Assembly: GCA_036320915.1 (NCBI GenBank)
Contig: JAXBDG010000023.1
Location: 124,001 to 188,000 of the forward strand
Length of the DNA stretch: 64,000 nucleotides
Direction: 5' to 3'
Origin: Linnemannia elongata
Lineage: Eukaryota; Mortierellomycota; Mortierellomycetes; Mortierellales; Mortierellaceae
Shown: positions 22,384 through 61,495 of the stretch, one piece after another
Position numbering within the stretch: position 1 is the first letter of the stretch
Layout of the letters: each line of letters starts with the position of its first letter
Notes under the pieces: model-generated
What the model was told of the DNA's origin: nothing
The model's input: the letters and a program-made list of their open reading frames with translations, nothing else
The model's database searches: none
Program-made: the position numbers and the translations under genes

Positions 22384-22396
22384 CCATTAGCAGAGG
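22384..22396. repeat. Target-site duplication, left copy
   Basis: 13-bp ccattagcagagg directly before the T run of the LINE. The same 13 bp occur directly beyond its other end (27733-27745). Confidence 0.85.
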
Positions 22397-22435
22397 TTTT
22401 TTTTTTTTTTCTTTTCAGTACGATTTTATTGTGGC

Positions 22436-38288: not shown

Positions 38289-38621
38289 TATATCTTAGCT
38301 GCATTCAGCCTCCATCGCCCCCAAATCTCTTCCCTATTTCGATGCACAATTTCATTTCTCTTGTTAACACCTTTCCCTCTACACGGTTGTAATCCTTTGC
38401 ACTAGGATCATTTCTTTGACATTTCTTTCGCTTTGCTATATCTCGCACTAAAAAACGATGCTGCTAGCTTTGGCTATGAGTCAACGGTTATGTTGAAATC
38501 AAGTCAGAGTAATGATGATTGTTGTAATGGTGGAAGGGAGGGTCTATTGTCATATTATTTGTTCTTGTCACGTCGTTATCTAGATGCAAATATGTCATAT
38601 TTTTCTATGCTGTAAGCTACT

Positions 38622-41600
38622 CTACCATTCCAACTCCTTTCCTCCACATGATCCGGTGGCACAAGATGAGGATGGCTGCACGAGTTCAATGCTGGTCTGC
38701 CATGTAAACCTGTCTTGTGTCTCTTGAGCATGGATCATAACCTTGTCCGTTGCCAACATATCATCAAGGTCCTTTGTGGGCGGGAGCAGCAAAAATACTT
38801 GACCGTCCTCCTCAACCTTCACCTCGAATGTCTGGATCTTGTATTTGTCCTCGTCACCGGGTGTAAGGCACTTGCCATCTTCAAGCCCAAAGTTCTTCTT
38901 ATGCATAGGACAAGACACGTATGGCTGTGACTTGCTGGCTCCAGACTCAGAAACACTGTCACCCAACAGACCCTGAGAAAGAACCATGGCTCGCTTGTGT
39001 GGACACATGTTTTGGGTCGCATACCACGATCCGTTCGGCAAACGGAATACTGCAATCTGAACATCGCCATGCTTGACAGTCCGGCCAGCGTCCGTTGCAA
39101 AGTCATCGGTCTTGCCAACACATATCCATTTCTTGAGGACTTGAGTGTCGAATGGATCCAGCTTGGGCGAGATGGGTGAGGGAGGCAGCTGCACCTCCTC
39201 CTTGGGCCAGTCCGCTGGTCGTCGCTGTCCACGCTCAGAAATGAACTCGATGCCCTCTTGAGTGTCGTCCGTGTTTACAAACTGTCGGAACTGCTGGCGG
39301 CGCTCTTGATCCTCAACAACCACCTTCCATTCACACTGATAGGTCGCAATCAGGTATGCCATCTGCTCCTCGAGTTCGTTGCAAATGCCAAGGTAGTCCT
39401 CCAGAACAACCTTCTTCAAGTACTCGATTCCTCCCTCCAACTTCTCCAGCCATTTCGAGGTGCGTGTCAACTTGTCGGCAGTCGCAATGTAAAACATCAG
39501 GAACCGGTCCAGGTACTTGATACAGTTGGCCTCTGAGACATCAGCAACCAGCAACACCGCGTGCTTGGGCTGTGCTCCACCATTGCCACATACAAAAAGA
39601 TTGTAACCTTTCTCAGTGGCAATCTATTTTGCCATGTCCCAGGATGAATTCACTGTCAGATGGAAGGAATTGGTGCCCGTACATAAACAGACAATATTTC
39701 ATCTCAGACTTCAATCAAACATAAGAGATATACTTACAATACCAAAGTCCTTTCCGCGAGCCTCGGCGCATTCTCGGACACATCCAGAGACGCCTCCCTT
39801 GAGTTTGTGAGGTGCTCGAAGACCCTTGTAGCGGTTCTCGATAAGGATGGCAAACCCCACAGAGTCTTGAAGCCCATAGCGGCACCAGGTCGACCCAACA
39901 CAACTCTTGACTGTACGGAGCGCCTTGCCATAGGCATGACCAGATTCCAGTCCAGCCTTGATCAACCGCTCCCATATCGACGGCAGGTCCTCTCGCTTGG
40001 CTCCAAAGAGATCGATTCTCTGTCCACCCGTAATCTTGGTGTAGAGCCCAAACTCCTTGGCAACTTCAGCAATGGCAATCAGTTTGTCGGGAGTAATCTC
40101 TCCACCAGGGACACGGGGCACTACCGAGTAAGTTCCTCCTCGTTGGATGTTGGCTAGGAATCGATCGTTGGTGTCTTGAAGAGGGGCGTGGTCCAGCACG
40201 TGGTCGTTGAACAGTGATGCCACGATCGATGCAACAGCCGGTTTGCACACCTCACAGCCCAGAGCATGGCTGCTCTTACCAGCGTGTTCCATGACTTGTG
40301 CAAACGTCTTGAGTTTCTTGACCTTGACAACTTGGTAGAGCTCCGTCCGGGAATACTCAAAGTGCGAGCACAGGTTTTGCTTGATGACTTTGCCCATGGC
40401 CTTGAGCTCGGTTTCAAAGATATCCCCAACTTGAGGAATGCATCCACCACATCCGAGGCCGGCCTTGGTGCACGTCTTGACTTCGCCGATCGAAGAACAC
40501 CCCTTGGATCGAACTGCAGATCTGATCTGGCCCTTGGTGACGTTGTTGCATGAACAGATCTGGGTATCATCTGGCAGATCGGCGGCTCCTTGGCCTTGAC
40601 CTGGCTTGAGACCCAGAATGAGTTCGCTCGGGGGGATCTGGAGTGACTTTTTCGACTTGGACATGCCCAGTAGCTTGCCGTAATCGGTGGTGTCGCCGAC
40701 CATCATGCCTCCTAGAAGGTGCTTTCCGTCCTTGGTGAAGATGTACTTCTTGTATACAGCGCCGAATGGATCCCGGTAAAGGAGTTCCCGAGTGTCCCTT
40801 GAGCTGGCGAAATAATCTCCAAAGGACGCGACATGGACGCCCAACAACTTCAGCTTGGTCGACATGTCTGCTGAGGTAAACAGACGAGGTTGGTGAGCTT
40901 TTCCGAGGCCCTTGGAATGGATGTCACGAGTCAGGTTCCGTGCAACGACTTCGGCCATGTCGTATCCTGGTGCCACAAGACCGTATGTTTGACCGCGATG
41001 GCAAGCAACCTCTCCAATAGCATAAACATCTTGTATGTTTGTCGCCAGGAAATCGTCGACCAAGACTCCTCCGCGGGCATGACACTCGATTCCAGAATCG
41101 CGCGCGATCTTGTCTCCTGGAAGAATACCGATTGCAAACACCACCATATCATGCTCGACAACCGACCCATCCTGCAGCTTGGCTTTGGATATATGCAATG
41201 ATTCTCCGCTCGTCGAGTCTGACATGAATGCAACAGGAGGATTGCCCAAGCTGTGTCCAATCCCAAGTTTTTCAATCTCGCGGAGAACCATGGCTGCACC
41301 CTCGCTGTCAAGCTGCCGCGACAAGACTTGGTTGTTTCGCTCATAGATCGTCGTCTTGAGACCGAGATCCGAAGTCGCCTTGGCAGCCTCCAACCCCAGC
41401 AAGCCCCCTCCAATCACAGCAGCATGCTTGGCGGTCTTGGATCGTTCGATAATCAGATCCAGGTCATCAATGGTCCGGTACACGTAGACTCCAGGGAGAT
41501 CCAATCCAGGGACAACCTTGGGCGATGGAAGCAAGGCGTTTGATCCAGTGGCAATGATGCAAATATCGTATGGCGTGGTTGTCACAGCTGCGGTGGGGGT

Positions 41601-42044
41601 GTTGATATCCAGGGTCGAAACCGACTCGATGACTTTCAAGTCAGGGTTGATTTTTGTTGCTGTTTGGTGCATCAAGAGTGAAATGTTGTTTTCTTGGTAC
41701 CACGTTTCCGGCTGCATGAGCTGTTGGTCGACAGTCCTGTGAGAGAAATACTGAGTCAAACCCACTCGGTTGTATGCGACTATTGAAAAGTAATTGTGAA
41801 TATTAAGTAAGATAATCGGCCAATTTTCATTGAGATGCCCCTCTCATTCTTCTTCGAACGCGCCTTAAAAGCAAGCACTAATATCTTGCTTACCAAGTGG
41901 CTCCTGGCATATTGCAGTGATTGTATATTTTTTAGCAGTGTCATATTCGAGGATCTTTTCAATAAAGGAGAGTGCGACCATGCCGAGACCGATAATGACG
42001 ATGGAAGAAGACTCGGTCTCCCTCTGGTTGGTTTCTGGTGCCAT
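38622..42044 (-). CDS. niiA: Nitrite reductase [NAD(P)H], left copy, 1064 aa
   Basis: Exons 42044-41894, 41779-39738 and 39623-38622, the exact mirror of the right copy at 56891-60313; the domain description is given there. Nitrite to ammonium, six electrons, cytosolic. It is transcribed in the same direction as the left nitrate reductase, 1.6 kb downstream of it. Both introns, the splice signals and the stop are identical to the right copy, and no lesion is present, so it should be as functional as the other. The name niiA follows Aspergillus usage. Confidence 0.93.
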
Positions 42045-42634
42045 GACTGAGGGTGATTGAAAGTAATACGAGAAAAGAGGGAAAGGAGGCGTGGGGCGAG
42101 AAGAATAATAAAAGGAGAAAGGAGGGGGAAAGAAGAATATGTAAAAGAAAAGGAGAGACGGGGAGATCAAAGAATATTTCAAAGGAGAGGGGAGGCGGAG
42201 AGAAAGAAGAGTATGTGTGGTATGTGCGTTACAGTCGCGGGGATGGTTCAAAGACTGAGTGAAAAACAGAGTGGTGGCTGTCGGAGAAATGAAAAAGGTG
42301 GCTGTCAACAAATTGGTCAAACAAATTGGACATATATTTATATGCACGATGATCATGTCTCGGTAAACAGAGCGTGAGGATCTTTTTTTCTTTTTATTGA
42401 CTCACTCATGCTGCACTTTGTTTGTTTCGGAGCAAACCTTGACATGATGGTCCCTAGCAGATCCTGAAGCAATCTCGCTCTCTTGTCTCTTCCACATGTT
42501 TATATGTTTGGGGGGACATTTGGAGGGAACAGATAAAGAATTTAAAGTTCAACGTGCCTCTCTTGTACTTCTGCTACCGTCGGTGGCTTAGCTGACCAGA
42601 CTGGTCACATGTATAAATTCTAGAAGTGTGGTGT

Positions 42635-42694
42635 ATGCTCCGAATCCACGAGCTTACTATCCACGAGTCTACTATCCACGGGCTCAATATCCAC
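42635..42694 (-). repeat. 15-bp x 4 direct repeat in the left nitrite reductase promoter
   Basis: Mirror of 56241-56300. Units of gtggatagtagactc type on the minus strand, about 600 bp before the start codon. Confidence 0.8.
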
Positions 42695-43389
42695 ATGCAC
42701 AGCATCCCAAGGCGGGTCAGACCCGTGAAGCAGTATCACTGTAGTTATTCTTCCAGGTAAGAAAGAAGAAAAAGGAGAGTAGCCTATCTGCTGTTTTGTT
42801 GTCTCGTTCTAGCCCTTCCTCACGACATGGCCGATCTACTCGACACGGTCTTTGTACCGTACCGTATGTTGTTTTTCGACTGACATATGTTAGATCCTGA
42901 GCTGAAAGCATGTCTGGTTGTAAATAAACTTGTTGGGGGGGGGGGGGTGGCATGTGCATCTCGTCCATATTGGATCTTCGTCTCACCATGCCTCGGGTGG
43001 AATGAAGGAAAGGGAAAGGGGCGAGAGTGAAATAAGGTGAGAGTCGGGAATAAGATCCTTGGAAGATGCTTGTAAAGCGAACAAAGGGACGAAGTATGGC
43101 CAAGTAGACTCGTGAATAATAGGCTCATGCTGATCAGTGTCCTTTTTGTGAGTCAGCTTAAAACCTCAGCGAAATCGACCATCTGCGGCCGATGTATGTC
43201 GGCAAGGTGCAATAGTGTAATGATTTAGATGTTCAGGGACTAGCTGAAAGGAATAAAAAGGTGGAAAGTTGTTGCATTGGAGATTCCTGCAACCGACTAT
43301 TTAACTGTGGGGAGGAAAGTGGCTGAGCCATACTACTTGCACAAGGTCTGGCAAACAAAAACAACCACAAAAAAGAAAAAGTAATTAAA

Positions 43390-43618
43390 TGATAGACAAT
43401 AGGCATACTACAACCAAACGAACAAACAAGAGAAAGACAGAAGGGATACTATGACCATGGAAATAAACAAGAGAGTGACAATAGAGATACTGTAACCACG
43501 AGAATAAACAAGAGAGAGACAGTAGAGATACTGCAGCCATGAGAATATAAACAAAAGAGAGAGAATAAGGATACTGCGAACAAGAGAACATCCAAGAGGA
43601 TGAACAAGGGAGAGGGCA
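43390..43618. repeat. 41-bp tandem repeat after the left nitrate reductase stop
   Basis: Mirror of 55317-55545, about five degenerate units. Confidence 0.75.
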
Positions 43619-43673
43619 TGTCAGACTGAATCAAACCATGATCATCCATATTTATTTTTCTTCATCCTCTTCC

Positions 43674-46605
43674 TCAGAAGCAGAATACATTGTTATCTAC
43701 AAACTCCTTCCCGTAGAGCTCTGTCAGAACAGGGAGACAGCAGAGGTTGATCATGGGTGGAGGACCGCAAAGCAGTACAATTCGACTTGATAGATCGTCA
43801 ATCGAGTCTGGAGCGCTCCCCTGCCTTGGGAACAAGTGCTCCTCAATCATGCTCTTGTTGAGATAGCCCGTACCGTACTTCCAACCTTCGGGTTTCTCTT
43901 CCGACAGCACATGCCAAAGGTGGAAACGGTCGGGTCCAAGTCCATTACCAGCGTCTTCGATATCTTTCCGCATCAAGATATCGTCCTCTGTTCGGTTGCC
44001 AAAGAGCAGCGACACTTTGGTTGCATCTTGGGTCTTGTCGGCAAGGATGGCTTGTATGATCTGGTACATAGGAGTAAGACCCGTACCGCCGCAGATCATA
44101 CCAATCTGTAGACATTTGCCCTTCCTTCCAGAGGAGTGCGAGTATTGACCTTGGCCGTGGTATGTGAAGCTTCCGACAGGACCCTTGATCGCAATGCTGT
44201 CGCCGATCGCCATAGCACCGAGATACTGCGAAACAACACCGCCGGCTGGGAATCGAGGATCGGTATCCTTGAAATAAATCTTGACCACTAGATCGAGGTG
44301 ACCTTGTCGATCCGGCAGACTGGTTGGAGTGTAGGCTCGGACATGGAGAGAGTCGTTCGCCTTGATCCTCAAAAAGACGTGGCTGCCCAAAGGGAGACCA
44401 AGAAGCTGATCCGGATGTCCAAACGCGAAGCGGAAGAGCCTGGTGTTATGGGTCAGATGGATCTTCTCCACCAGCACTATGTCTTGCCATTTTTTCGGAT
44501 CCAAGAACGACCGCGCGGCAGCACTTAGGGACGGGGATGGAAGACCACTTGACAGCGGTATGAGTAGCCCGGTCGAAACAGACTTGACTTGGACACCATC
44601 ATTGGGCTCTGGAATGCTTGCAACAAGTTCCCCGCGGTAGTACTTGGCAAGCAACTCTCTGGCTTTGGCTGAATGGATCGCGTCAAAATCCTCGGTACAA
44701 TCCTCCCCAGCGTTCATGACAATACTGTCAGCCCCTCCTGGATGCTCCTGCAGGAACTCTGTGCAATCATAGACCTTGCCACCATGAATGATCCAACAAT
44801 CGTCCTCCGTTGAATGCTTGGAGACCTCATCTGCCGTATAACAATTGACCCCAGACGCTACAGCGTCGATTTTGTTGATGGTCGCAGTATTGATGTTGGC
44901 GGCATCTGATATCGCATTCTCCACCTTGGTTTCTGTCGTCTGGCGCTTGACAATTGCTGTAGTCAGAATAGGGGCGGGTGTTGTTGTGGGTTTCGACGTT
45001 TGTACAATGTTGTCCTTGTCCAGCCCTTCTCCTTTGGGCCTCATCCAGCCTCCGCCACTTTCCGATCCTGGCACTGTAGGGTGGAGGAACATAACGACTA
45101 GTCCACCATCATCCTTCCCAGAGACGGTCAAATCGACCTGGACGCGGTACCAGCAGTTGTTCATCATCCCCATCAGATTCCAGTTCAGATCCTTTGGCTG
45201 GGTGTTCATAGTGCTGTCCCAAGCTCGGACATGGATATCGTTGCACTTGAGTAGCTGGCGCACAGGGACCTTGATCGACCAAAAGCACCAGCACCAGTAT
45301 CGTTGCCTTGGGAACGGGTCGTTGCAGAACTGGTACTCTGGCCATTCCTCGGGATGTTCAAGATCAGTCACCAGCCAGGATATTCCAGAGTCGAGGGTCA
45401 CCTCTACCCGAGTGATTTTTTTGCATCCGCCGTTGTAAGCATAGCCGCTGATGGTGATGTCGTTGGTCAAGACTTGAGGATCCGAGATCGGTAAGACTGA
45501 TCCATGGGCAGGTGAGCAAATGGCACTGTTGATGTTGAGGTCGTTGATGGTGTATTCGGGTCGAGTCCACCATTGTTCCCGCTTCGCCATGTCGGCATCG
45601 CTGACAACCGACGGCAAGACTCGGTTATCATGGTAGTGGTACCAGCTGTCAGATCGAGCCTCAGAGACGGTAATCTTGGAGAGGAACTTGATCATCCGAC
45701 CTCCAATGACGCCTGGGACGATCAAACGGACGGGAAAGCCATGGTCTGACGTAAGCCGAGTTCCGTTCATCTCGTATGCAATCAGTACATCGTTCATGGG
45801 GTTCAGAGCCCTCTCCACAGAAAGACTTGTGCCGTAGGTGCCGTTGGGGAGTTTATCCGACCCGTCAAAGCAAACAAATCTTGCGTCCTTCCCAAGTCCA
45901 CCGCAAACGTTGAGCAATAGGTCCCTGACAAGTACGCCCTTCCAGATAGCTGTTGACACGGCTCCGGGACCCCAGTTGAATCCAATCGTTTGTTTAAACA
46001 TATTCTGCTCCTTCCGTCGGTTTCCAGCACAGACAAGGGTGACAGGTATGGTGATGCTTGGTAGTTGTGTGAGCATATCCATCGTCAGCGTCACCTCTGT
46101 ATTCACAAGTCTAAACAAAAAAAATAATAATAAAGTGAAGAAATAGAAGAGATCCGATTAGTGACAACTTGACAACTGTGGGCTTATGTAGATATTAACT
46201 AGGACCCTGACAGGCTGGTACTACTTACCCTTCAATGGACAAGCGGTGAGTATCCCATGAGAGCTGAGGGACTGGTCCATGGTTCCGGACATAGTGTATT
46301 GAACTTGGGGTGATGAACCCCTTGCTGAAGAGAAGTGGTACTGGTGGTTCGCAGTTAAATGGATGCTTTCCTATTGTACGAGGAGAATTGGATTTTAGCC
46401 GGTGGTCAGCGTTCAGAACATCCATAGACGATGGAGCAATAGTGTTTCGCTGTAAGATAGGTAAGGGTTGGTTGTCTGTACCTGTGAGTCGAATAAGTTC
46501 TGGATGCCTCTTTATCCATCTGTCTGGGGTGTTGGCATCACGGGGATCAAGTTGTATTTTTGAGTTGTCGTCGTCGTCTGTGTGATTGATCTTAACGTCT
46601 GGCAT
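43674..46605 (-). CDS. niaD: Nitrate reductase [NAD(P)H], left copy, 937 aa
   Basis: Exons 46605-46229 and 46110-43674, mirror of the right copy (52330-55261), where the domains are described. Nitrate to nitrite in the cytosol, with molybdopterin, heme b5 and FAD. Same intron and no lesion. Upstream is a full duplicate of the shared nitrate reductase/transporter promoter, but beyond 47598 there is no transporter gene, so the promoter's other side points into noncoding DNA. Confidence 0.94.
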
Positions 46606-47032
46606 TTTGGTAGGATGGAAGGGCAAAATTGTGTGAGTGTGCTCTTTTGTGGTAGCAGTGTGCTTTTTTATGGTAGGAGTGTGCTCTTTTGTGGTAAGAG
46701 TGTGCTCTTTTGTGGTGAGAGTATGTAATAGCAGCAGAAGAGGCCAAGGGAAAAAAGAGGCGAGGCCAAGGGAAGAAAGAGACAAGGTTAAGGGAACAAA
46801 GAGATGAGGCAAAGAGAATAAAGAGACGAGGCCAAGGATAGTAAGAGAAAAGGCTGAGGGAAGCAGCCTGCAGGAAAAGACGGGGACAAGGGAAGCAGAA
46901 AAAGACGGGGACAAGGGTTGAAGTGATGATGTCCTATGTTACAGCTGTATATAAATATACAGAGAGGGAACTAACTTTGAGTCATGTCTGGCTTGCCGGC
47001 TAGATGGTGATGGTAATGGTGGTTGTTGTTGC

Positions 47033-47065
<33 letters not shown>

Positions 47066-47598
47066 GGTGGTGGTGGTGGTAATGGTGGTGGGTGATTGAG
47101 ATTTTGACCTGTTCCTGTAGAGATACAGATAACCTAATCTGTCACAGACTGCTTTACCTGCCCTGAATCGTGATAAAAGCCCTGTTGGGAGAAAAAAAAC
47201 TACATGTGTTTCACACTGAAAATTCTCCTATCTGAAAAAGACCTCCGCACGCACGTGATCCATGTGCACTTCCCTCCCTCCCTCCCTCCTATACACGTTT
47301 CCCTTTACAAACGACACGTTATTAATTGTCTACGATGATCCGTTTCTGCACACGTTATTGTTCGTTAGCGATGATCTGCTTCTTTACACGTTATTGGTGG
47401 TCAGCGATGATCCCTATCGGCTGAAGACTTGATCCGGGCGCGTCCTATGGTACAAACAGTAAGAATTACTTACTCCCTTTTCCATCTGACAGTAATGAGA
47501 GAACTCATGGCGGCCAAGTGTCCAGAACCATTCCCTTCTCTGAGTCATTCTCACAAGCAGGAAGGATAGCATCAGACTGATGTGTTACAATGGCACTT
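46606..47598 (-). promoter_or_regulatory. Duplicated bidirectional promoter, orphaned on one side
   Basis: Mirror of 51337-52329. Carries the 36-bp triple repeat (47305-47412), the GTT array (47023-47064), the tgtatatttatatac palindromic TATA region (46950-46964) and GATA candidates. It ends at the arm boundary without the last 140 bp and the coding region of the transporter. Confidence 0.7.
47305..47412 (-). repeat. 36-bp x 3 direct repeat, left promoter
   Basis: Mirror of 51523-51630. Confidence 0.85.
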
Positions 47599-49508
47599 CT
47601 CTAACGTTGTAGAGTGACTGCTAGTGGTGCTTTCAAATATCGAAAGTTATAATCCATCTCAGACGACTTTAATTGAACGGGGAACCATAAGCAGAGCAGC
47701 ATCCTTGCTACGATCTGCTGAGATTAAGCCCAATGTTCAATAGACTTGTTCCTTTGAGAACGTATCTTTCCCTTCGCATCTTTCTTCTCTTTCTCGCTTG
47801 TGATGGTGTTCTAAGGGGCGGATAGTAAGCTTACCCATTGACGATGACGCATATTTACAACCACTTCAACCTAAGCCCTGTGGATGACACTGCTACCTTA
47901 AATAGGTGTACGAGTCACATAGGTAAACTGGTAACGAGCACCGACGTATGTGGCACAGGTGCATAATTAAGATTGGTCGAATGTATGATTCAGGTGCAAG
48001 CACAGTATGGTACAGATGCATTGTACAGGTTAAGGTGCTCTGGGTCCATGACCGGGTGCATGCACATCCATTAAGCCCACTCCATCTCTAACTTCATATC
48101 TTCAATTTAATACATATTCACTCAAAATGTTTAGCTAATAACTGATCCACTCTGTGTCGACGTAACAACACATACGTTCCAACCTTCTCGTACCCCACAC
48201 AGCATTAGTACTCAAAAAAAAAAAAAAAAAAAAAAGGCTAATTGTAGCGAACAAGGGGTGTGGGGTAAATAAAGGCCTTGTAAACTTCTCCAGTTGGTTT
48301 ATTAATATGTACTCGTCCAAGAGATCAATGCAGTCCAGCTTGCTACAGTGTGTGTACTAAGGTCACATCAGAGTACCTCTTTACACGTAGTACATTTGAT
48401 TGAGGGACGCGTTCAATCCTTAGTTCCCTATCAGTGTCAGTCCTTGACTCGTTTTCTGGCCCACTCTTATTCCTTCTCGCTCTCCTTCTCATTTCATCAT
48501 GCTCTCAACGATGTAAATGTGAGGGCTTTATTCTTGATCCCTCTGGTTTCACTCCCTCCTCAAGGTCTTTGTAACCTTGCGAATGATATGATGATGCCGG
48601 TCTGGACACGATTAACAGGTACTTGAACATATTAATAATAACAAACGGGTCAGCAGAGATTAAGCAATAAGAGGAGAATGGCAAAACAACGATCGTCAAT
48701 TTACTTTTTCATTTTCGGCACAGATGCTAAGCAGGGGCTGAAAGACAAAAGGAAGATACAAGAGGAGAGGAAGAAGGAGATGACATACTGAGCGAGATGA
48801 AGAGGTAATAGGCGGAAGCAGGGATTGATGAAGGAGTTATGAAAGGCAAAAAGGAGAATGGTGAGGACGGCAGAGGAAGTAAGGAGAGGAGTGGTTGCGG
48901 TGCGCAAGTGGGGGGCGAAGAATCAGAGAGAGTCAGAGGGAATGAAAGGAAAGAACTACAAGAGGAATGATGCAAAGAGTAGAGAGGCAAAGATAAGGGA
49001 GACAAAGAGAGGCTGTGCTCTATGATGCATAACATCATTTAAGGTTATCGTATGGGGTTGGTTCGTAAAATCTGCCTTGACTACAAATCATTTCCTCAGT
49101 CTTGGCCTTTGCTCTCCAATCTTGCGCTCCCATGAAAAAAGGCACCCAACTAACACTCCATGACCAGCAACACTCCTTCCCTCTCCAAACCACAGTACGA
49201 GGGTGACAATCAAATGACTACCTGTAAAAGGCATCTGGCGATGTCTGAACTATTCCACCACAAGCTCCTCGTATCCTACAACAAATCCAAACCCAAAAGG
49301 CTCCCCCGTCAACCATCCCTGGATTTGTGACACCTTCATCCCCTTTCCTTTGACCGGAATGTATTGCTGGAGACATTATGGACCCTCATATTCAATACAT
49401 GGTTATCTCAATTATAGTATATTTGCCGTGCAGGATAACTTGATACAGAAAAATAGATACAACTGCTAAATGTGTTTACGTATTAAATAAATCAAAGACC
49501 CTACAATT
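47599..49508. other. Palindrome loop, gene-free part
   Basis: No supportable gene over 1.9 kb. Holds a diverged copy (about 47990-48200) of the sequence just outside the right arm, an A22 run at 48214-48235, a G/A-rich patch at 48730-49000 (minus-strand ORFs there are Ser/Leu/Pro composition artefacts), and the 3' flank of the transporter gene. Confidence 0.5.
47990..48200 (+). repeat. Diverged direct repeat, loop copy
   Basis: Aligns over about 210 bp with 60370-60590 in the same orientation. Shared blocks include gcac(a/t)tccat(t/a)aa followed by catctct-like text, and cata(c/t)gttcca(a/g)cctt(c)ccgtac. Clearly older than the arm duplication, because it is strongly diverged. Confidence 0.6.
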
Positions 49509-51196
49509 TTATGGGTTCAATTTCTTGAAAAGTAGTCCGAGAAGCATTCGACTTTGGATCTTCAGTAGCAAAGTGAACATTGCTGCTGTAAGCGCTGCAT
49601 AGCCGATAACACGGAAGGCACCGGCATAGTTGGTGCCATATACCTTAAAGATGTAATTGAACACAATGGAGCCAATGCTTCCACCGGCACCAACGAGGCC
49701 ATACACGGCGCCCATGCTCTTCGGATTGGCAAATGGGACAATAGCTAACCAAAAGAAATTTTAAAACAAAATCAGTGTTAATAAATAAATACTTTTCAGA
49801 GGTTGAACGACAAACAGCGCCCGCAGACACAACACATGATGCAATAATAACTTACAGAATGTAGTACCACATCCGGCTTGAACACAGTAACTAAACAGGA
49901 CCAAGACGACAATTGAGGAGCTCAATGCTCCCATCGCAAAGGAGAACCCAATGAGAAAGGCTCCCTGAAAGAAAAAGACAGCGAAGTGGACAAGCATACG
50001 ACCTTGGATGCCCTCGCCGATCAGTGTGTTGACATAATCAGCCAGCATGCCTCCGCTGGCGCGAGAGAAGAGATTCATCAGTCCAAAGATAGATCCCAGC
50101 ATGCCAGAGGTTGTTTGTGAGAGCCCAAAATGCGAGTGGAAGAATTCTCCGATCATGTTGTCGACGGCCAACTCCACACCGAAGGAACAGCCGTACTGGA
50201 TCATTAGGATCAGCACAGCTGGGTTCTTGAGCTGTGACAGCAAATCCACCAAAATTGATGGTTGCTCAACAGGAGCGGGAACTCTGACGGCGTTTGGTGA
50301 TGTCTCCTTCCGACTGGTGGGCTTTTCGTCGTCCGAGTCGCCGAGGTCCAAGGAATCACAGTCGGAGGCTGTCCGTGGCAGTCCATGCTTTTCGACGTCA
50401 TGGCTCTCGAGGCTGGAATCGCGGTTCTTCCATTCATCGCCTGGACAATCATCACCCAGGAAATAATCCGCTGCGGCGATGAGAATACAGAGACAGGCAG
50501 GAACGACAAATGTGACACGCCACGCTTGGTGTGCAGGTAAGGCAAGGGCAATGGCGTTGTAAATCAATGGAATCAAGAAGTAGGACACTCCTGCCCCCAT
50601 GTTGCCGAATCCACCGCAAATCGCATTGGCTGTTCCGACAATGTTGTACGAAAACATCCGCGAGGCCCAGTATTGGCATGGTACAAAGGTAGCGCCGACA
50701 ATGCCAATAAAGAACCTGGTGATGATCAACCCGTTGGCGTCCGAAGCGAGTCCAGCCAACCCAATGGTAATAGATCCAACAAGGAGCAAACCCGCCATGG
50801 CTTTCCTAGGACCCCAGCGGTCACACAATGGTCCCTATAGGCATAAGAAGATGATTTTGGTTAGAATCATGAATTGCAAAATAGCTTTTCCATTCCTTTA
50901 CCCTTGCAAGTCCTGCCTCCATGTCTTACAATCATTAATCGGGCCAGAATAGTAGCACTGACACTGGTCAGATTGGCGTCTGAAATCTGGCTAGGAGTGA
51001 GCTTCAGATCAGCTTTGATGGTAGGCATGAGTGGAGGAATGGCGAACCAGCCTGTGAAGGCTATAAAGAAGGACAGCCACGAGAGGTGCATTGCTCTCAT
51101 ATGCGGCCGAGCAAATGAGAATAGTTTTATGTTGGTCGCTTTCCCATCTTCATCGACTAGGATTTGTTTTGGAAAGATCTTTGTTGCCAGCGTCAT
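49509..51196 (-). CDS. crnA: Nitrate/nitrite transporter, MFS NNP family, 493 aa
   Basis: High-affinity nitrate uptake at the plasma membrane. Exons 51196-50930, 50834-49856 and 49744-49509, introns of 95 and 111 nt with consensus signals; phases join to 493 codons, near the usual ~500. Start chosen at MTLATKIF, the first Met that gives the family N-terminus; the upstream frame is leader. Twelve hydrophobic segments are expected. Seen: GWFAIPPLMPTIKADL (TM1 side), the MFS loop GPLCDRWGPRKAMAG straddling intron 1, nitrate signature-like GGFGNMGAG near 163-171, a charged central loop, and GLVGAGGSIGS near 434 as the second signature. The only single-copy gene of the cluster; divergent from the right nitrate reductase. 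Also called nrtA. Confidence 0.93.
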
Positions 51197-51522
51197 ATTG
51201 TGTGTAGGATATTTTGGAGAAGAGGTTGTGTTTTTTTGTGGCGATTTTGAAAATCCATTTACAATATTTGGGATATATTTATGCAAGTCTCGAAAGTGTG
51301 TGGGGTAACCATTGAACGTTAAAGAAGATCTTAAACAAGTGCCATTGTAACACATCAGTCTGATGCTATCCTTCCTGCTTGTGAGAATGACTCAGAGAAG
51401 GGAATGGTTCTGGACACTTGGCCGCCATGAGTTCTCTCATTACTGTCAGATGGAAAAGGGAGTAAGTAATTCTTACTGTTTGTACCATAGGACGCGCCCG
51501 GATCAAGTCTTCAGCCGATAGG

Positions 51523-51630
51523 GATCATCGCTGACCACCAATAACGTGTAAAGAAGCAGATCATCGCTAACGAACAATAACGTGTGCAGAAACGGATCAT
51601 CGTAGACAATTAATAACGTGTCGTTTGTAA
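51523..51630 (+). repeat. 36-bp x 3 direct repeat in the shared promoter
   Basis: Units start with gatcatcg at 51523, 51559 and 51595, and each carries ataacgtgt at the same offset. The last unit is the most diverged. The position between divergent promoters and conserved cores suggest clustered binding sites. Confidence 0.85.
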
Positions 51631-51869
51631 AGGGAAACGTGTATAGGAGGGAGGGAGGGAGGGAAGTGCACATGGATCACGTGCGTGCGGAGGTCTTTTT
51701 CAGATAGGAGAATTTTCAGTGTGAAACACATGTAGTTTTTTTTCTCCCAACAGGGCTTTTATCACGATTCAGGGCAGGTAAAGCAGTCTGTGACAGATTA
51801 GGTTATCTGTATCTCTACAGGAACAGGTCAAAATCTCAATCACCCACCACCATTACCACCACCACCACC

Positions 51870-51870
<1 letters not shown>

Positions 51871-51902
<32 letters not shown>

Positions 51903-51912
51903 GCAACAACAA
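51871..51912 (+). repeat. (CAA)n microsatellite
   Basis: About 13 CAA units with one CAG, preceded by a CCA array. Identical in length to the mirror tract at 47023-47064. Confidence 0.9.
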
Positions 51913-52329
51913 CCACCATTACCATCACCATCTAGCCGGCAAGCCAGACATGACTCAAAGTTAGTTCCCTCTCTGTATATTTATATACAGCTGTAACATA
52001 GGACATCATCACTTCAACCCTTGTCCCCGTCTTTTTCTGCTTCCCTTGTCCCCGTCTTTTCCTGCAGGCTGCTTCCCTCAGCCTTTTCTCTTACTATCCT
52101 TGGCCTCGTCTCTTTATTCTCTTTGCCTCATCTCTTTGTTCCCTTAACCTTGTCTCTTTCTTCCCTTGGCCTCGCCTCTTTTTTCCCTTGGCCTCTTCTG
52201 CTGCTATTACATACTCTCACCACAAAAGAGCACACTCTTACCACAAAAGAGCACACTCCTACCATAAAAAAGCACACTGCTACCACAAAAGAGCACACTC
52301 ACACAATTTTGCCCTTCCATCCTACCAAA

Positions 52330-55261
52330 ATGCCAGACGTTAAGATCAATCACACAGACGACGACGACAACTCAAAAATACAACTTGATCCCCGTGATGC
52401 CAACACCCCAGACAGATGGATAAAGAGGCATCCAGAACTTATTCGACTCACAGGTACAGACAACCAACCCTTACCTATCTTACAGCGAAACACTATTGCT
52501 CCATCGTCTATGGATGTTCTGAACGCTGACCACCGGCTAAAATCCAATTCTCCTCGTACAATAGGAAAGCATCCATTTAACTGCGAACCACCAGTACCAC
52601 TTCTCTTCAGCAAGGGGTTCATCACCCCAAGTTCAATACACTATGTCCGGAACCATGGACCAGTCCCTCAGCTCTCATGGGATACTCACCGCTTGTCCAT
52701 TGAAGGGTAAGTAGTACCAGCCTGTCAGGGTCCTAGTTAATATCTACATAAGCCCACAGTTGTCAAGTTGTCACTAATCGGATCTCTTCTATTTCTTCAC
52801 TTTATTATTATTTTTTTTGTTTAGACTTGTGAATACAGAGGTGACGCTGACGATGGATATGCTCACACAACTACCAAGCATCACCATACCTGTCACCCTT
52901 GTCTGTGCTGGAAACCGACGGAAGGAGCAGAATATGTTTAAACAAACGATTGGATTCAACTGGGGTCCCGGAGCCGTGTCAACAGCTATCTGGAAGGGCG
53001 TACTTGTCAGGGACCTATTGCTCAACGTTTGCGGTGGACTTGGGAAGGACGCAAGATTTGTTTGCTTTGACGGGTCGGATAAACTCCCCAACGGCACCTA
53101 CGGCACAAGTCTTTCTGTGGAGAGGGCTCTGAACCCCATGAACGATGTACTGATTGCATACGAGATGAACGGAACTCGGCTTACGTCAGACCATGGCTTT
53201 CCCGTCCGTTTGATCGTCCCAGGCGTCATTGGAGGTCGGATGATCAAGTTCCTCTCCAAGATTACCGTCTCTGAGGCTCGATCTGACAGCTGGTACCACT
53301 ACCATGATAACCGAGTCTTGCCGTCGGTTGTCAGCGATGCCGACATGGCGAAGCGGGAACAATGGTGGACTCGACCCGAATACACCATCAACGACCTCAA
53401 CATCAACAGTGCCATTTGCTCACCTGCCCATGGATCAGTCTTACCGATCTCGGATCCTCAAGTCTTGACCAACGACATCACCATCAGCGGCTATGCTTAC
53501 AACGGCGGATGCAAAAAAATCACTCGGGTAGAGGTGACCCTCGACTCTGGAATATCCTGGCTGGTGACTGATCTTGAACATCCCGAGGAATGGCCAGAGT
53601 ACCAGTTCTGCAACGACCCGTTCCCAAGGCAACGATACTGGTGCTGGTGCTTTTGGTCGATCAAGGTCCCTGTGCGCCAGCTACTCAAGTGCAACGATAT
53701 CCATGTCCGAGCTTGGGACAGCACTATGAACACCCAGCCAAAGGATCTGAACTGGAATCTGATGGGGATGATGAACAACTGCTGGTACCGCGTCCAGGTC
53801 GATTTGACCGTCTCTGGGAAGGATGATGGTGGACTAGTCGTTATGTTCCTCCACCCTACAGTGCCAGGATCGGAAAGTGGCGGAGGCTGGATGAGGCCCA
53901 AAGGAGAAGGGCTGGACAAGGACAACATTGTACAAACGTCGAAACCCACAACAACACCCGCCCCTATTCTGACTACAGCAATTGTCAAGCGCCAGACGAC
54001 AGAAACCAAGGTGGAGAATGCGATATCAGATGCCGCCAACATCAATACTGCGACCATCAACAAAATCGACGCTGTAGCGTCTGGGGTCAATTGTTATACG
54101 GCAGATGAGGTCTCCAAGCATTCAACGGAGGACGATTGTTGGATCATTCATGGTGGCAAGGTCTATGATTGCACAGAGTTCCTGCAGGAGCATCCAGGAG
54201 GGGCTGACAGTATTGTCATGAACGCTGGGGAGGATTGTACCGAGGATTTTGACGCGATCCATTCAGCCAAAGCCAGAGAGTTGCTTGCCAAGTACTACCG
54301 CGGGGAACTTGTTGCAAGCATTCCAGAGCCCAATGATGGTGTCCAAGTCAAGTCTGTTTCGACCGGGCTACTCATACCGCTGTCAAGTGGTCTTCCATCC
54401 CCGTCCCTAAGTGCTGCCGCGCGGTCGTTCTTGGATCCGAAAAAATGGCAAGACATAGTGCTGGTGGAGAAGATCCATCTGACCCATAACACCAGGCTCT
54501 TCCGCTTCGCGTTTGGACATCCGGATCAGCTTCTTGGTCTCCCTTTGGGCAGCCACGTCTTTTTGAGGATCAAGGCGAACGACTCTCTCCATGTCCGAGC
54601 CTACACTCCAACCAGTCTGCCGGATCGACAAGGTCACCTCGATCTAGTGGTCAAGATTTATTTCAAGGATACCGATCCTCGATTCCCAGCCGGCGGTGTT
54701 GTTTCGCAGTATCTCGGTGCTATGGCGATCGGCGACAGCATTGCGATCAAGGGTCCTGTCGGAAGCTTCACATACCACGGCCAAGGTCAATACTCGCACT
54801 CCTCTGGAAGGAAGGGCAAATGTCTACAGATTGGTATGATCTGCGGCGGTACGGGTCTTACTCCTATGTACCAGATCATACAAGCCATCCTTGCCGACAA
54901 GACCCAAGATGCAACCAAAGTGTCGCTGCTCTTTGGCAACCGAACAGAGGACGATATCTTGATGCGGAAAGATATCGAAGACGCTGGTAATGGACTTGGA
55001 CCCGACCGTTTCCACCTTTGGCATGTGCTGTCGGAAGAGAAACCCGAAGGTTGGAAGTACGGTACGGGCTATCTCAACAAGAGCATGATTGAGGAGCACT
55101 TGTTCCCAAGGCAGGGGAGCGCTCCAGACTCGATTGACGATCTATCAAGTCGAATTGTACTGCTTTGCGGTCCTCCACCCATGATCAACCTCTGCTGTCT
55201 CCCTGTTCTGACAGAGCTCTACGGGAAGGAGTTTGTAGATAACAATGTATTCTGCTTCTGA
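52330..55261 (+). CDS. niaD: Nitrate reductase [NAD(P)H], right copy, 937 aa
   Basis: Cytosolic molybdoflavoprotein reducing nitrate to nitrite. Exons 52330-52706 and 52825-55261; the 118-nt intron has GTAAGT and TTTAG and restores the frame. ATG chosen because the preceding open codons are T/C-rich leader. Order: molybdopterin domain of sulfite-oxidase type with ligand Cys153 in VCAGNRRKEQN; Mo dimerisation domain about 290-430; cytochrome b5 about 545-620 with heme His582 (EHPGG) and His605; FAD domain with RAYTPTS near 717; NAD(P)H domain with GGTGLTP near 799 and CGPPPM near 907; C-terminal FCF as usual. All cofactor residues seen are intact. Divergent from the transporter; the nitrite reductase follows 1.6 kb downstream. 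Identical in sequence to the left copy. Confidence 0.96.
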
Positions 55262-55316
55262 GGAAGAGGATGAAGAAAAATAAATATGGATGATCATGGT
55301 TTGATTCAGTCTGACA

Positions 55317-55545
55317 TGCCCTCTCCCTTGTTCATCCTCTTGGATGTTCTCTTGTTCGCAGTATCCTTATTCTCTCTCTTTTGTTTATATTCTCATGGCT
55401 GCAGTATCTCTACTGTCTCTCTCTTGTTTATTCTCGTGGTTACAGTATCTCTATTGTCACTCTCTTGTTTATTTCCATGGTCATAGTATCCCTTCTGTCT
55501 TTCTCTTGTTTGTTCGTTTGGTTGTAGTATGCCTATTGTCTATCA
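55317..55545 (+). repeat. 41-bp tandem repeat, about five units
   Basis: Period 41 bp, marked by (g)cagtatctct with tctcttgtttattctcatgg-type text between. Starts 56 bp after the nitrate reductase stop, so it should lie in the 3' UTR or just past it. Confidence 0.75.
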
Positions 55546-56240
55546 TTTAATTACTTTTTCTTTTTTGTGGTTGTTTTTGTTTGCCAGACCTTGTGCAAGT
55601 AGTATGGCTCAGCCACTTTCCTCCCCACAGTTAAATAGTCGGTTGCAGGAATCTCCAATGCAACAACTTTCCACCTTTTTATTCCTTTCAGCTAGTCCCT
55701 GAACATCTAAATCATTACACTATTGCACCTTGCCGACATACATCGGCCGCAGATGGTCGATTTCGCTGAGGTTTTAAGCTGACTCACAAAAAGGACACTG
55801 ATCAGCATGAGCCTATTATTCACGAGTCTACTTGGCCATACTTCGTCCCTTTGTTCGCTTTACAAGCATCTTCCAAGGATCTTATTCCCGACTCTCACCT
55901 TATTTCACTCTCGCCCCTTTCCCTTTCCTTCATTCCACCCGAGGCATGGTGAGACGAAGATCCAATATGGACGAGATGCACATGCCACCCCCCCCCCCCC
56001 AACAAGTTTATTTACAACCAGACATGCTTTCAGCTCAGGATCTAACATATGTCAGTCGAAAAACAACATACGGTACGGTACAAAGACCGTGTCGAGTAGA
56101 TCGGCCATGTCGTGAGGAAGGGCTAGAACGAGACAACAAAACAGCAGATAGGCTACTCTCCTTTTTCTTCTTTCTTACCTGGAAGAATAACTACAGTGAT
56201 ACTGCTTCACGGGTCTGACCCGCCTTGGGATGCTGTGCAT

Positions 56241-56300
56241 GTGGATATTGAGCCCGTGGATAGTAGACTCGTGGATAGTAAGCTCGTGGATTCGGAGCAT
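56241..56300 (+). repeat. 15-bp x 4 direct repeat in the nitrite reductase promoter
   Basis: gtggata...ctc units at 56241, 56256, 56271 and 56286, about 300 bp upstream of the TATA box. Each carries a GATA core (GGATAT/GGATAG; the last is GGATTC). Confidence 0.8.
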
Positions 56301-56890
56301 ACACCACACTTCTAGAATTTATACATGTGACCAGTCTGGTCAGCTAAGCCACCGACGGTAGCAGAAGTACAAGAGAGGCACGTTGAACTTTAAATTCTTT
56401 ATCTGTTCCCTCCAAATGTCCCCCCAAACATATAAACATGTGGAAGAGACAAGAGAGCGAGATTGCTTCAGGATCTGCTAGGGACCATCATGTCAAGGTT
56501 TGCTCCGAAACAAACAAAGTGCAGCATGAGTGAGTCAATAAAAAGAAAAAAAGATCCTCACGCTCTGTTTACCGAGACATGATCATCGTGCATATAAATA
56601 TATGTCCAATTTGTTTGACCAATTTGTTGACAGCCACCTTTTTCATTTCTCCGACAGCCACCACTCTGTTTTTCACTCAGTCTTTGAACCATCCCCGCGA
56701 CTGTAACGCACATACCACACATACTCTTCTTTCTCTCCGCCTCCCCTCTCCTTTGAAATATTCTTTGATCTCCCCGTCTCTCCTTTTCTTTTACATATTC
56801 TTCTTTCCCCCTCCTTTCTCCTTTTATTATTCTTCTCGCCCCACGCCTCCTTTCCCTCTTTTCTCGTATTACTTTCAATCACCCTCAGTC

Positions 56891-59800
56891 ATGGCACCAG
56901 AAACCAACCAGAGGGAGACCGAGTCTTCTTCCATCGTCATTATCGGTCTCGGCATGGTCGCACTCTCCTTTATTGAAAAGATCCTCGAATATGACACTGC
57001 TAAAAAATATACAATCACTGCAATATGCCAGGAGCCACTTGGTAAGCAAGATATTAGTGCTTGCTTTTAAGGCGCGTTCGAAGAAGAATGAGAGGGGCAT
57101 CTCAATGAAAATTGGCCGATTATCTTACTTAATATTCACAATTACTTTTCAATAGTCGCATACAACCGAGTGGGTTTGACTCAGTATTTCTCTCACAGGA
57201 CTGTCGACCAACAGCTCATGCAGCCGGAAACGTGGTACCAAGAAAACAACATTTCACTCTTGATGCACCAAACAGCAACAAAAATCAACCCTGACTTGAA
57301 AGTCATCGAGTCGGTTTCGACCCTGGATATCAACACCCCCACCGCAGCTGTGACAACCACGCCATACGATATTTGCATCATTGCCACTGGATCAAACGCC
57401 TTGCTTCCATCGCCCAAGGTTGTCCCTGGATTGGATCTCCCTGGAGTCTACGTGTACCGGACCATTGATGACCTGGATCTGATTATCGAACGATCCAAGA
57501 CCGCCAAGCATGCTGCTGTGATTGGAGGGGGCTTGCTGGGGTTGGAGGCTGCCAAGGCGACTTCGGATCTCGGTCTCAAGACGACGATCTATGAGCGAAA
57601 CAACCAAGTCTTGTCGCGGCAGCTTGACAGCGAGGGTGCAGCCATGGTTCTCCGCGAGATTGAAAAACTTGGGATTGGACACAGCTTGGGCAATCCTCCT
57701 GTTGCATTCATGTCAGACTCGACGAGCGGAGAATCATTGCATATATCCAAAGCCAAGCTGCAGGATGGGTCGGTTGTCGAGCATGATATGGTGGTGTTTG
57801 CAATCGGTATTCTTCCAGGAGACAAGATCGCGCGCGATTCTGGAATCGAGTGTCATGCCCGCGGAGGAGTCTTGGTCGACGATTTCCTGGCGACAAACAT
57901 ACAAGATGTTTATGCTATTGGAGAGGTTGCTTGCCATCGCGGTCAAACATACGGTCTTGTGGCACCAGGATACGACATGGCCGAAGTCGTTGCACGGAAC
58001 CTGACTCGTGACATCCATTCCAAGGGCCTCGGAAAAGCTCACCAACCTCGTCTGTTTACCTCAGCAGACATGTCGACCAAGCTGAAGTTGTTGGGCGTCC
58101 ATGTCGCGTCCTTTGGAGATTATTTCGCCAGCTCAAGGGACACTCGGGAACTCCTTTACCGGGATCCATTCGGCGCTGTATACAAGAAGTACATCTTCAC
58201 CAAGGACGGAAAGCACCTTCTAGGAGGCATGATGGTCGGCGACACCACCGATTACGGCAAGCTACTGGGCATGTCCAAGTCGAAAAAGTCACTCCAGATC
58301 CCCCCGAGCGAACTCATTCTGGGTCTCAAGCCAGGTCAAGGCCAAGGAGCCGCCGATCTGCCAGATGATACCCAGATCTGTTCATGCAACAACGTCACCA
58401 AGGGCCAGATCAGATCTGCAGTTCGATCCAAGGGGTGTTCTTCGATCGGCGAAGTCAAGACGTGCACCAAGGCCGGCCTCGGATGTGGTGGATGCATTCC
58501 TCAAGTTGGGGATATCTTTGAAACCGAGCTCAAGGCCATGGGCAAAGTCATCAAGCAAAACCTGTGCTCGCACTTTGAGTATTCCCGGACGGAGCTCTAC
58601 CAAGTTGTCAAGGTCAAGAAACTCAAGACGTTTGCACAAGTCATGGAACACGCTGGTAAGAGCAGCCATGCTCTGGGCTGTGAGGTGTGCAAACCGGCTG
58701 TTGCATCGATCGTGGCATCACTGTTCAACGACCACGTGCTGGACCACGCCCCTCTTCAAGACACCAACGATCGATTCCTAGCCAACATCCAACGAGGAGG
58801 AACTTACTCGGTAGTGCCCCGTGTCCCTGGTGGAGAGATTACTCCCGACAAACTGATTGCCATTGCTGAAGTTGCCAAGGAGTTTGGGCTCTACACCAAG
58901 ATTACGGGTGGACAGAGAATCGATCTCTTTGGAGCCAAGCGAGAGGACCTGCCGTCGATATGGGAGCGGTTGATCAAGGCTGGACTGGAATCTGGTCATG
59001 CCTATGGCAAGGCGCTCCGTACAGTCAAGAGTTGTGTTGGGTCGACCTGGTGCCGCTATGGGCTTCAAGACTCTGTGGGGTTTGCCATCCTTATCGAGAA
59101 CCGCTACAAGGGTCTTCGAGCACCTCACAAACTCAAGGGAGGCGTCTCTGGATGTGTCCGAGAATGCGCCGAGGCTCGCGGAAAGGACTTTGGTATTGTA
59201 AGTATATCTCTTATGTTTGATTGAAGTCTGAGATGAAATATTGTCTGTTTATGTACGGGCACCAATTCCTTCCATCTGACAGTGAATTCATCCTGGGACA
59301 TGGCAAAATAGATTGCCACTGAGAAAGGTTACAATCTTTTTGTATGTGGCAATGGTGGAGCACAGCCCAAGCACGCGGTGTTGCTGGTTGCTGATGTCTC
59401 AGAGGCCAACTGTATCAAGTACCTGGACCGGTTCCTGATGTTTTACATTGCGACTGCCGACAAGTTGACACGCACCTCGAAATGGCTGGAGAAGTTGGAG
59501 GGAGGAATCGAGTACTTGAAGAAGGTTGTTCTGGAGGACTACCTTGGCATTTGCAACGAACTCGAGGAGCAGATGGCATACCTGATTGCGACCTATCAGT
59601 GTGAATGGAAGGTGGTTGTTGAGGATCAAGAGCGCCGCCAGCAGTTCCGACAGTTTGTAAACACGGACGACACTCAAGAGGGCATCGAGTTCATTTCTGA
59701 GCGTGGACAGCGACGACCAGCGGACTGGCCCAAGGAGGAGGTGCAGCTGCCTCCCTCACCCATCTCGCCCAAGCTGGATCCATTCGACACTCAAGTCCTC

Positions 59801-60313
59801 AAGAAATGGATATGTGTTGGCAAGACCGATGACTTTGCAACGGACGCTGGCCGGACTGTCAAGCATGGCGATGTTCAGATTGCAGTATTCCGTTTGCCGA
59901 ACGGATCGTGGTATGCGACCCAAAACATGTGTCCACACAAGCGAGCCATGGTTCTTTCTCAGGGTCTGTTGGGTGACAGTGTTTCTGAGTCTGGAGCCAG
60001 CAAGTCACAGCCATACGTGTCTTGTCCTATGCATAAGAAGAACTTTGGGCTTGAAGATGGCAAGTGCCTTACACCCGGTGACGAGGACAAATACAAGATC
60101 CAGACATTCGAGGTGAAGGTTGAGGAGGACGGTCAAGTATTTTTGCTGCTCCCGCCCACAAAGGACCTTGATGATATGTTGGCAACGGACAAGGTTATGA
60201 TCCATGCTCAAGAGACACAAGACAGGTTTACATGGCAGACCAGCATTGAACTCGTGCAGCCATCCTCATCTTGTGCCACCGGATCATGTGGAGGAAAGGA
60301 GTTGGAATGGTAG
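56891..60313 (+). CDS. niiA: Nitrite reductase [NAD(P)H], right copy, 1064 aa
   Basis: Cytosolic siroheme flavoprotein reducing nitrite to ammonium. Exons 56891-57041, 57156-59197 and 59312-60313, introns of 114 nt each with GTAAG and AATAG; phases join. Order: FAD/NAD(P)H module beginning IIGLGMVALSF (about 17) with a second Rossmann motif AVIGGGLLGLEAA; BFD-type [2Fe-2S] domain with CSC near 459-461 and CGGC near 494-497; sulfite/nitrite reductase ferredoxin-like halves; siroheme/4Fe-4S cysteines in SCVGSTWC (677, 683) and GCVREC (717, 721); fused C-terminal Rieske domain with CPH near 937-939 and CPMH near 969-972. The fusion of NirB- and NirD-like parts is the normal fungal form. All ligands present. 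Ends 49 bp before the arm boundary. Confidence 0.96.
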
Positions 60314-60369
60314 AGTAGCTTACAGCATAGAAAAATATGACATATTTGCATCTAGATAACGAAAGCAAA

Positions 60370-60590
60370 GTGTCGTACATGGGTATAGTGCAGGGTGATG
60401 GTTGCACTGGCCCATTGTTCGAGTGTCTGCACTTCCATAAACCGCACTCTATCTCTATTCTATGTATATCCTCCATTTTATTACCTACTCCCTCGAAGTG
60501 TTTAACTCGTACTCGAACCACTCACAGTCGTCGCACCTGCACCACTCACAGTAAATGCATATGTTCCAGCCTTCCCGTACCTCTACCCGT
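60370..60590 (+). repeat. Diverged direct repeat, outer-flank copy
   Basis: Homologous to 47990-48200 in the loop. It begins within about 10 bp of the right arm's outer boundary. Confidence 0.6.
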
Positions 60591-60834
60591 GCATGCACTT
60601 GCACCAACTGGTTCCGTACGCGCACGTACCACTCCCAAGACCATTACCATTACCCTATGCCCCCCATTATCTGTTTCCTCCACACACCCTGTTGATTTCC
60701 TTAAGAGGTACGTCTTCACGTCTTCATCACTAAGAGAAAGCTCTTCAAGTCCAATAGATAGACGTGTATATACAGCTGTCGATCGGCTTTACTGGCGTCC
60801 TCACAGTTTATAAATGAAGATCGTAGCATGGCGC
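60591..60834. other. Intergenic, C/A-rich
   Basis: No gene called. The overlapping 158-codon open frame (60337-60813) is Ser/Thr/His-rich from composition. Confidence 0.35.
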
Positions 60835-61495
60835 AAAGGGTGGATGGACAGTGGCACACATGGAGTCATCACTAAAGCATGGAAATAAGTGGGTGGAAAA
60901 TGGTCGGCAGTAACGATTTATTCATATTGAAATACTCTGTGGGGATACAGACTTTGTTCCTCTACAGCAATCGCTTTTTTCTGCCACGACAGTTGTACTC
61001 GCGGCTTCCTTCACGGAGGTGTGAAGCAAATATGAGGATGTAAAAGAAGTAGCAGTCGTTGTCATTCCCTCGGTCGTTCTCTCTCTCTCGCCTCATTTCA
61101 TGGGAGGTCATTCTTTATAACTTTTCTGCCTTGTCTTTGTCCATTTTATCGCTTCTCTGTCGATTTCTCTCTCTCTTTGCCACTCCATACTCTGTAAAAA
61201 CATAGCCGCCAACACCCTGACCGTGTTCTGCTTTGTTGATGGAGACGAAACTTTTCAATGCGTTCTCTTTCAAGGCTCCCCCCAGATGCACTGCCGATGA
61301 CCCTCAAGAGCCTTATGAAGACCATAAAAAAAAGAAAAAAAAACCCCCCTCTTCACTTTGGCGACGTCGCAGCCGATGAGCTGTCTCTTTAGCGCATTTT
61401 GATTCCTGATGACGACGAAGAGCAGCCTGTCTTGTTGGACAAGGCCCCGGACAAGACGAAATTCAAGGCGACACGATCGCGAGCACCTTCATGGC
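60835..61495 (+). pseudogene. Crinkler-like gene relic: promoter and N-terminal domain
   Basis: After an upstream region shared with 18839-19345, 61216-61490 translates in pieces as a CRN N-terminal domain: NTLTVFCFVDGDET, then after a frameshift a Pro/Lys patch, then FGDVAADELSL-stop-RILIPDDDEEQPVLLDKAP. The stop sits where this family has Trp (a TGG to TAG change). A run of A/C at 61325-61346 marks another lesion. No intact start codon is placed. The gene's later part is probably 61477-62310. Confidence 0.65.

Follow-up and report, generated by a model that had tools for sequence, protein, structure and literature searches.

A palindromic duplication of the nitrate and nitrite reductase genes around a single nitrate transporter gene in Linnemannia elongata

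How does a fungus come to carry its nitrate and nitrite reductase genes twice, on the two arms of a perfect palindrome, with a single nitrate transporter gene between them? An earlier note on a stretch of Linnemannia elongata DNA, made from the sequence alone, described such an arrangement and offered three options: a very recent duplication, arms kept identical by gene conversion, or a fold-back made during assembly.

Two identical arms around a single-copy loop

The window, the whole 64,000-nucleotide stretch analyzed, corresponds to C16:124001-188000 in a genome of 51.1 Mb and 32 contigs, and coordinates given below without a contig are those of the window. It contains two inverted arms of 9,026 bp, the left at 38573..47598 (minus strand) and the right at 51337..60362 (plus strand), with 0 mismatches between them, on either side of a loop of 3,738 bp (47599..51336). 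Although a repeat search first gave arms at 38573-47604 and 51331-60362, base-by-base comparison about the mirror sum 98935 set the exact limits, as the arms are mismatch-free from 38573 to 47598 and mismatches occur at 38572, 47599 and 47601. Both the arm and loop lengths and the coordinate sum reported in the earlier note are borne out by this comparison.

A genome search with a whole arm returned 14 matches: two full-length ones, which were the arms themselves, and 12 short repeats no longer than 138 bp. Two pieces of the loop, 47700-48700 and the transporter piece 49761-50828, each had one full-length match in the genome. The 2-kb outer flanks likewise each had one full-length match, with no other match for the left flank and 16 partial matches (70-83%) for the right. 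The palindrome begins 162.6 kb into contig C16, which opens with a telomere-like array at base 1, runs through the locus (162-184 kb) and reaches 668 kb. The array (C16:1-409; L034) consists of 41.5 copies of the 10-base unit AAAAAACCCT, longer than the common TTAGGG unit.

As had been proposed, each arm contains complete niaD and niiA genes, with the nitrate reductase gene inner and the nitrite reductase gene outer. In the right arm, the niaD-type gene lies at 52330..55261 on the plus strand (exons 52330-52453, 52565-52706 and 52825-55261; 900 amino acids) and the niiA-type gene at 56891..60313, also on the plus strand (exons 56891-57041, 57156-59197 and 59312-60313; 1064 amino acids). These spliced models, which draw on Pfam and on mapping of the proteins P0001 (niaD) and P0241 (niiA), are open to their stops. 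The left copies, niaD at 43674..46605 and niiA at 38622..42044, both on the minus strand, are mirrors of the right. The Pfam domains of the inner gene (Mo-co, Mo-co dimer, cytochrome b5, FAD and NAD) are those of assimilatory nitrate reductase, and those of the outer gene (Pyr_redox_2, BFD, NIR_SIR and a C-terminal Rieske domain) are those of NAD(P)H nitrite reductase. Protein searches of the genome found two identical copies of each enzyme, together with one weak match (29%) for the nitrite reductase and 28 weaker matches for the nitrate reductase. The latter include a diverged nitrate-reductase-like gene at C31:209006-211796 (L011, L012, L014 and L016), which matches in five pieces at 37-57%; a stop inside one matched piece may be intronic.

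The loop encodes an NNP-family nitrate transporter (nrt; 49509..51196, minus strand, with the ATG at 51196 and the TAA at 49509-49511). It was assigned to the MFS transporters by Pfam (MFS_1), P0126 and P0121 map to it, and high-affinity nitrate transporter 2.1 is a frequent annotation among its close relatives. The description of this gene as the only transporter gene is supported for the transporter query used, which had one genome match. With nitrate transporter, nitrate reductase and nitrite reductase genes clustered, the locus has the membership of a fungal nitrate assimilation cluster of the fHANT-AC type.

The inner arm boundary is 140 bp upstream of the transporter ATG. Since the outer boundary is just 49 bp beyond the nitrite reductase stop, it may be within the niiA 3′ UTR. 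Both reductases are intact in both copies.

How is the cluster arranged in relatives? The proteins nearest to the reductases and transporter are 99% identical and named Linnemannia elongata. In protein records, from which gene order was deduced using locus tags and equal contig sizes, niaD and niiA have consecutive tags in Entomortierella beljakovae, Linnemannia zychae and Lunasporangiospora selenospora, each of which also has a transporter on a contig of equal size. Consecutive tags place niaD beside nrt in Actinomortierella wolfii, Mortierella sp. AD094 and AD010, and Entomortierella lignicola. These tags fit the order nrt-niaD-niiA, although in AD094 and E. lignicola the niiA that was found sits on a different contig, which counts against a fixed cluster. 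As the tags give no orientation and nrt adjoins niaD in both arms, the relatives do not tell which copy is older.

The left edge of the loop carries a diverged fragment of the 28S rRNA 3′ end (47608..47794, plus strand), which scores 28.2 bits against the Rfam LSU model (gathering score 50; E 1.5e-4) and is 75% identical to the LSU-bearing locus L005; at gathering thresholds, Rfam finds nothing in the window. At least 38 dispersed fragments matching the 28S 3′ end are present in the genome (L003-L008 among them). All six that were checked end at LSU model position 3399, with four starting near 2390 and two at 3006, and they look like a 28S-derived mobile or retrocopied family.

Several other repeats surround the locus. 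A multi-copy retroelement with an RNase H domain, whose copies are variably truncated from a shared end, occupies 4549-9023, and a second 734-bp end piece of it is present in inverted orientation at 8290-9023 (99.9% identical). This pair was the one other inverted repeat of at least 300 bp that megablast found in the contiguous 94 kb C16:114001-208000. We considered it as a second case of fold-back and rejected it; because both of its arms stop where the variably truncated copies of this multi-copy retroelement have their common end, we regard the pair as two insertions in opposite orientation. A repeat family with copies at 60828-62299, 17585-19364 and C16 ~118.8 and 197 kb (70-94% alike, in both orientations) is mostly local to C16, with a few short matches on C4, C17 and C31. 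A direct repeat of 1.1 kb (91% identical) links 10326-11421 and 22394-23477, the second copy running over the end of an ORF that encodes reverse transcriptase and endonuclease domains, and a tandem array with a period of ~84 bases lies at C16:205143-206256 (L029).

Junctions and proposed origin

For the junctions, we call the left outer flank A, the right outer flank B and two similar blocks in B and the loop b and b′, respectively. Gapped alignment with 60 shuffles per comparison detected no homology past the arm ends: the left outer sequence against the reversed right outer sequence scored 15.5, and the left inner sequence against the reversed right inner sequence scored 17.5, both within the shuffled values.

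Read outward, the left loop end is ...CTCTACAACGTTAGAG followed by the arm sequence AAGTGCC, and the right loop end is ...AACGTTAAAGAAGATCTTAAAC followed by AAGTGCC. The left end (47599..47608, minus strand; AACGTTAGAG in outward reading) has inverted microhomology with 51315-51327 (plus strand; AACGTTAAAGAAG), a site in the transporter-niaD intergenic region that we propose as the fold-back priming site. B starts AAGCAAAG. When the reversed loop is joined to B, the resulting AACGTTAGAGAAG matches AACGTTAAAGAAG at 12 of 13 positions, a value attained by 0 of 20,000 simulations, in which loops of equal length were taken from window positions 9101-36000; this was tested once the match had been noticed, and the simulated spacers overlap and all derive from this one 27-kb stretch. 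With A as the native neighbor, the match drops to 10 of 13, and 361 of the 20,000 simulations reach at least 10. For the inverted match at the inner junction, a single-anchor null gives 4.5e-4 (post hoc). The outer joint has no microhomology.

Block b (60363..60581, plus strand) starts exactly at the end of the right arm and resembles b′ (47998..48194, plus strand), with a local score of 59 and 67% identity over the first 180 columns. When 463 arm bases were added to the query, the b/b′ alignment still started exactly at the arm end. When the right flank (400 bases) was compared with 96 pieces of C16, one was the flank itself, one was the loop and the other 94 scored at most 18.5; among the loci compared, b scores 59 with the loop only. 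That b and b′ belong to a dispersed repeat is unsupported by a genome search with b, which finds b alone, although b′ was also missed and copies at 67% would thus escape this search. A genome search with b′ gave eight matches, the query itself and seven that fall immediately beyond b′, at 48206-48295. This stretch beyond b′ also accounts for a score of 46.5 between L002 and the b′ query (47795-48400).

Which arm is the new copy? Placing the reversed loop next to B makes b′ and b an inverted pair 399 bp apart (score 59) with the junction at the edge of b, whereas A joined to the loop gives no such pair (score 13). It is mainly for this reason that we prefer the right arm as the new copy, with a later flip of the loop: an originally reversed loop would place b and b′ as an inverted pair at the break, make the right copy the derived one and require the loop to have turned round afterwards. 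As the microhomology and the b/b′ resemblance were both noticed before testing, the probabilities attached to them are optimistic.

We conclude that the palindrome probably arose by recent interstitial inverted duplication through fold-back (template-switch) DNA synthesis. Among the options in the earlier note, recent duplication is thus favored, because homology ends abruptly at the arm ends and the inner junction bears a fold-back signature, and a simple assembly fold-back is disfavored; gene conversion may have acted on the arms afterwards. The ancestral order would have been A, niiA-niaD, the divergent nrt, the left part of the loop in reverse and B, with b′ and b as an old inverted pair ~400 bp apart. 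A DNA break at the inner edge of b could have left a 3′ end, AACGTTAGAGAAG. Folding of this end onto AACGTTAAAGAAG, which lies 3.7 kb away between nrt and niaD, would have primed synthesis, a step whose signature is seen at the junction. Priming synthesis would then have jumped 12 bp between two AAG triplets, as the junction also suggests, before copying niaD and niiA. The observed outer junction implies that synthesis ended 49 bp beyond the niiA stop and that the end of the new copy was joined to B without microhomology. Finally, the loop may have been flipped by recombination between the identical arms, or its orientation may have been chosen by the assembler.

Some features count against this model. 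It needs a later loop flip or an arbitrary orientation in the assembly, the outer joint is without microhomology and, unlike in human inverted duplications with terminal deletion (inv-dup-del), the distal chromosome is kept.

How recent might the duplication be? The 0 differences in 9,026 bp place a 95% upper bound of 3.3e-4 per site on arm divergence. Relative to the L. elongata proteins P0001 and P0241, which may come from different strains, 17 of 1,964 residues differ (11 of 900 in the nitrate reductase and 6 of 1,064 in the nitrite reductase). Taking 17 as the expected number of changes, the probability of zero differences between arms that had been separate since the split from P0001/P0241 is ~4e-8. 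Since zero differences would otherwise be improbable, we place the duplication, or the latest conversion, after the split from P0001/P0241.

Alternative explanations

Could the palindrome instead be older, its arms homogenized by gene conversion in the manner of Y-chromosome palindromes? Gene conversion works well on long inverted repeats, and these arms match perfectly along all 9,026 bp, including introns and the DNA between genes. However, conversion tracts are expected to fade past the arm ends, where no diverged homology is found, and we consider this origin unlikely. The transporter also bears weakly on the question. In the L. elongata record BGZ90, P0121 is on a 23.8-kb contig, longer than the loop alone; if the record was assembled from short reads, such a length would be unexpected had identical arms been collapsed, which would argue against an old palindrome. 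The argument is weak because another L. elongata-labelled transporter, P0134 (84% identical), is on a contig of 3.2 kb, a size that collapsed arms could give.

It is also conceivable that fold-back or template-switch synthesis made the left arm, with A originally joined to the loop and the loop never flipped. This would require no loop inversion, and the inner junction would still have 9 of 10 inverted matches. However, the coincidence of block b with the end of the right arm would be unexplained, and the match does not extend into A. We consider a new left arm unlikely, slightly more so than gene conversion. A separate argument, that the left copy is derived because the transporter faces the right arm, was dropped, since orientation is uninformative once loop flipping is allowed.

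That the second arm is an assembly artefact, absent from the chromosome, is distinctly unlikely. Perfect identity is what an artefact would give, and the sequence evidence comes from the assembly itself. However, a fold-back caused by a missed adapter has no unique loop, and here the loop is 3.7 kb. Nor would a simple fold-back rejoin unique sequence on both sides, as seen for the outer flanks, which each match one place over their full length. The position of the locus well inside a contig of 668 kb with a telomere-like array at its start, and the fold-back signatures at the junctions, also argue against an artefact.

Finally, a transposon-mediated or origin-dependent inverted-repeat amplification (ODIRA)-type event, later eroded to two copies, is very improbable: short inverted repeats are also used in ODIRA (PMC8150848, in the part available), eroded triplications have been proposed to yield inverted duplications (PMC10766186, likewise) and a 28S-derived fragment abuts the loop edge in a window with retroelements, but by eye the junctions show neither terminal inverted repeats on the arms nor a target-site duplication, and the arms occur as two genome copies, not as three with an inverted middle.

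Related systems and possible consequences

The preferred origin, recent fold-back duplication, has its closest parallel in human fold-back inverted duplications. In the accessible portion of that study, the spacers of 21 sequenced junctions range from 766 to 70,466 bp (median 3,428 bp), 13 of the 21 junctions have 2-8 bp of inverted microhomology, three are in inverted LINE/SINE copies and five have insertions (Hermetz et al., 2014; PMC3907307). The L. elongata locus resembles these cases, as described there, in having a single-copy spacer of a few kb (3,738 bp, with the two searched parts each matching one place) and, where the spacer meets the arm, inverted microhomology (12 of 13 with B, found post hoc). 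It is unlike them in that the arms are 9 kb rather than much larger, the duplication is interstitial with the distal chromosome kept, both copies are intact and the organism is a fungus. The contig continues on both sides, with no distal terminal deletion, translocation or ring. The locus therefore works like the fold-back inverted duplication class but falls outside the inv-dup-del class.

Other systems share some of these features, as far as the available parts of the reports describe them. ODIRA gives triplications (PMC8150848), and those at yeast SUL1 are also inverted copies of a nutrient locus with short inverted repeats at the junctions (PMC8150848, PMC10766186, PMC4689423), but they comprise three copies rather than two around a unique loop (PMC8150848, PMC10766186). 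Candida albicans provides a fungal example of copy gain with fold-back-like inversions at long inverted repeats; there, however, the inverted repeats pre-exist and breakage-fusion-bridge cycles take part, whereas here we see just ~13 bp of inverted match (PMC7371428). The three clustered nitrate assimilation genes resemble fHANT-AC as reported, except that two of the three are doubled as a palindrome around the third (PMC4347624). Among the papers listed in a literature search, judged mainly by titles and the starts of abstracts and with few subscription papers, none describes a nitrate cluster duplicated in inverted or palindromic form. According to the available part of PMC10766186, long palindromes are unstable and seldom present in natural genomes, also when a short spacer separates their arms; the longer loop here may help this one to persist.

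What might the palindrome do? From the gene content, reductase dosage would be expected to be twice that of the transporter. Both niaD copies retain an identical 993 bp upstream, and the shared promoter contains four HGATAR (GATA-type) sites, compared with ~3 expected by chance in a hand calculation. The arm edge is 140 bp from the transporter ATG, on the upstream side, and nrt thus retains its divergent promoter and neighbor in either orientation of the loop. We tentatively suggest that the locus is a natural interstitial fold-back dosage gain with a freely flipping loop, and that it could represent a reversible copy-number state for nitrate use, perhaps under selection and differing between strains. 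Since the shared promoter is present at both ends of the loop, the loop could in this dosage reading flip freely with transporter control remaining identical.

In this locus, a primary-metabolism gene pair is carried intact and the breakpoints are clean enough for a mechanism to be proposed. It thus offers a natural fungal case in which to test within-chromosome fold-back duplication, loop inversion between perfect arms and selection on the dosage of nitrate assimilation genes.
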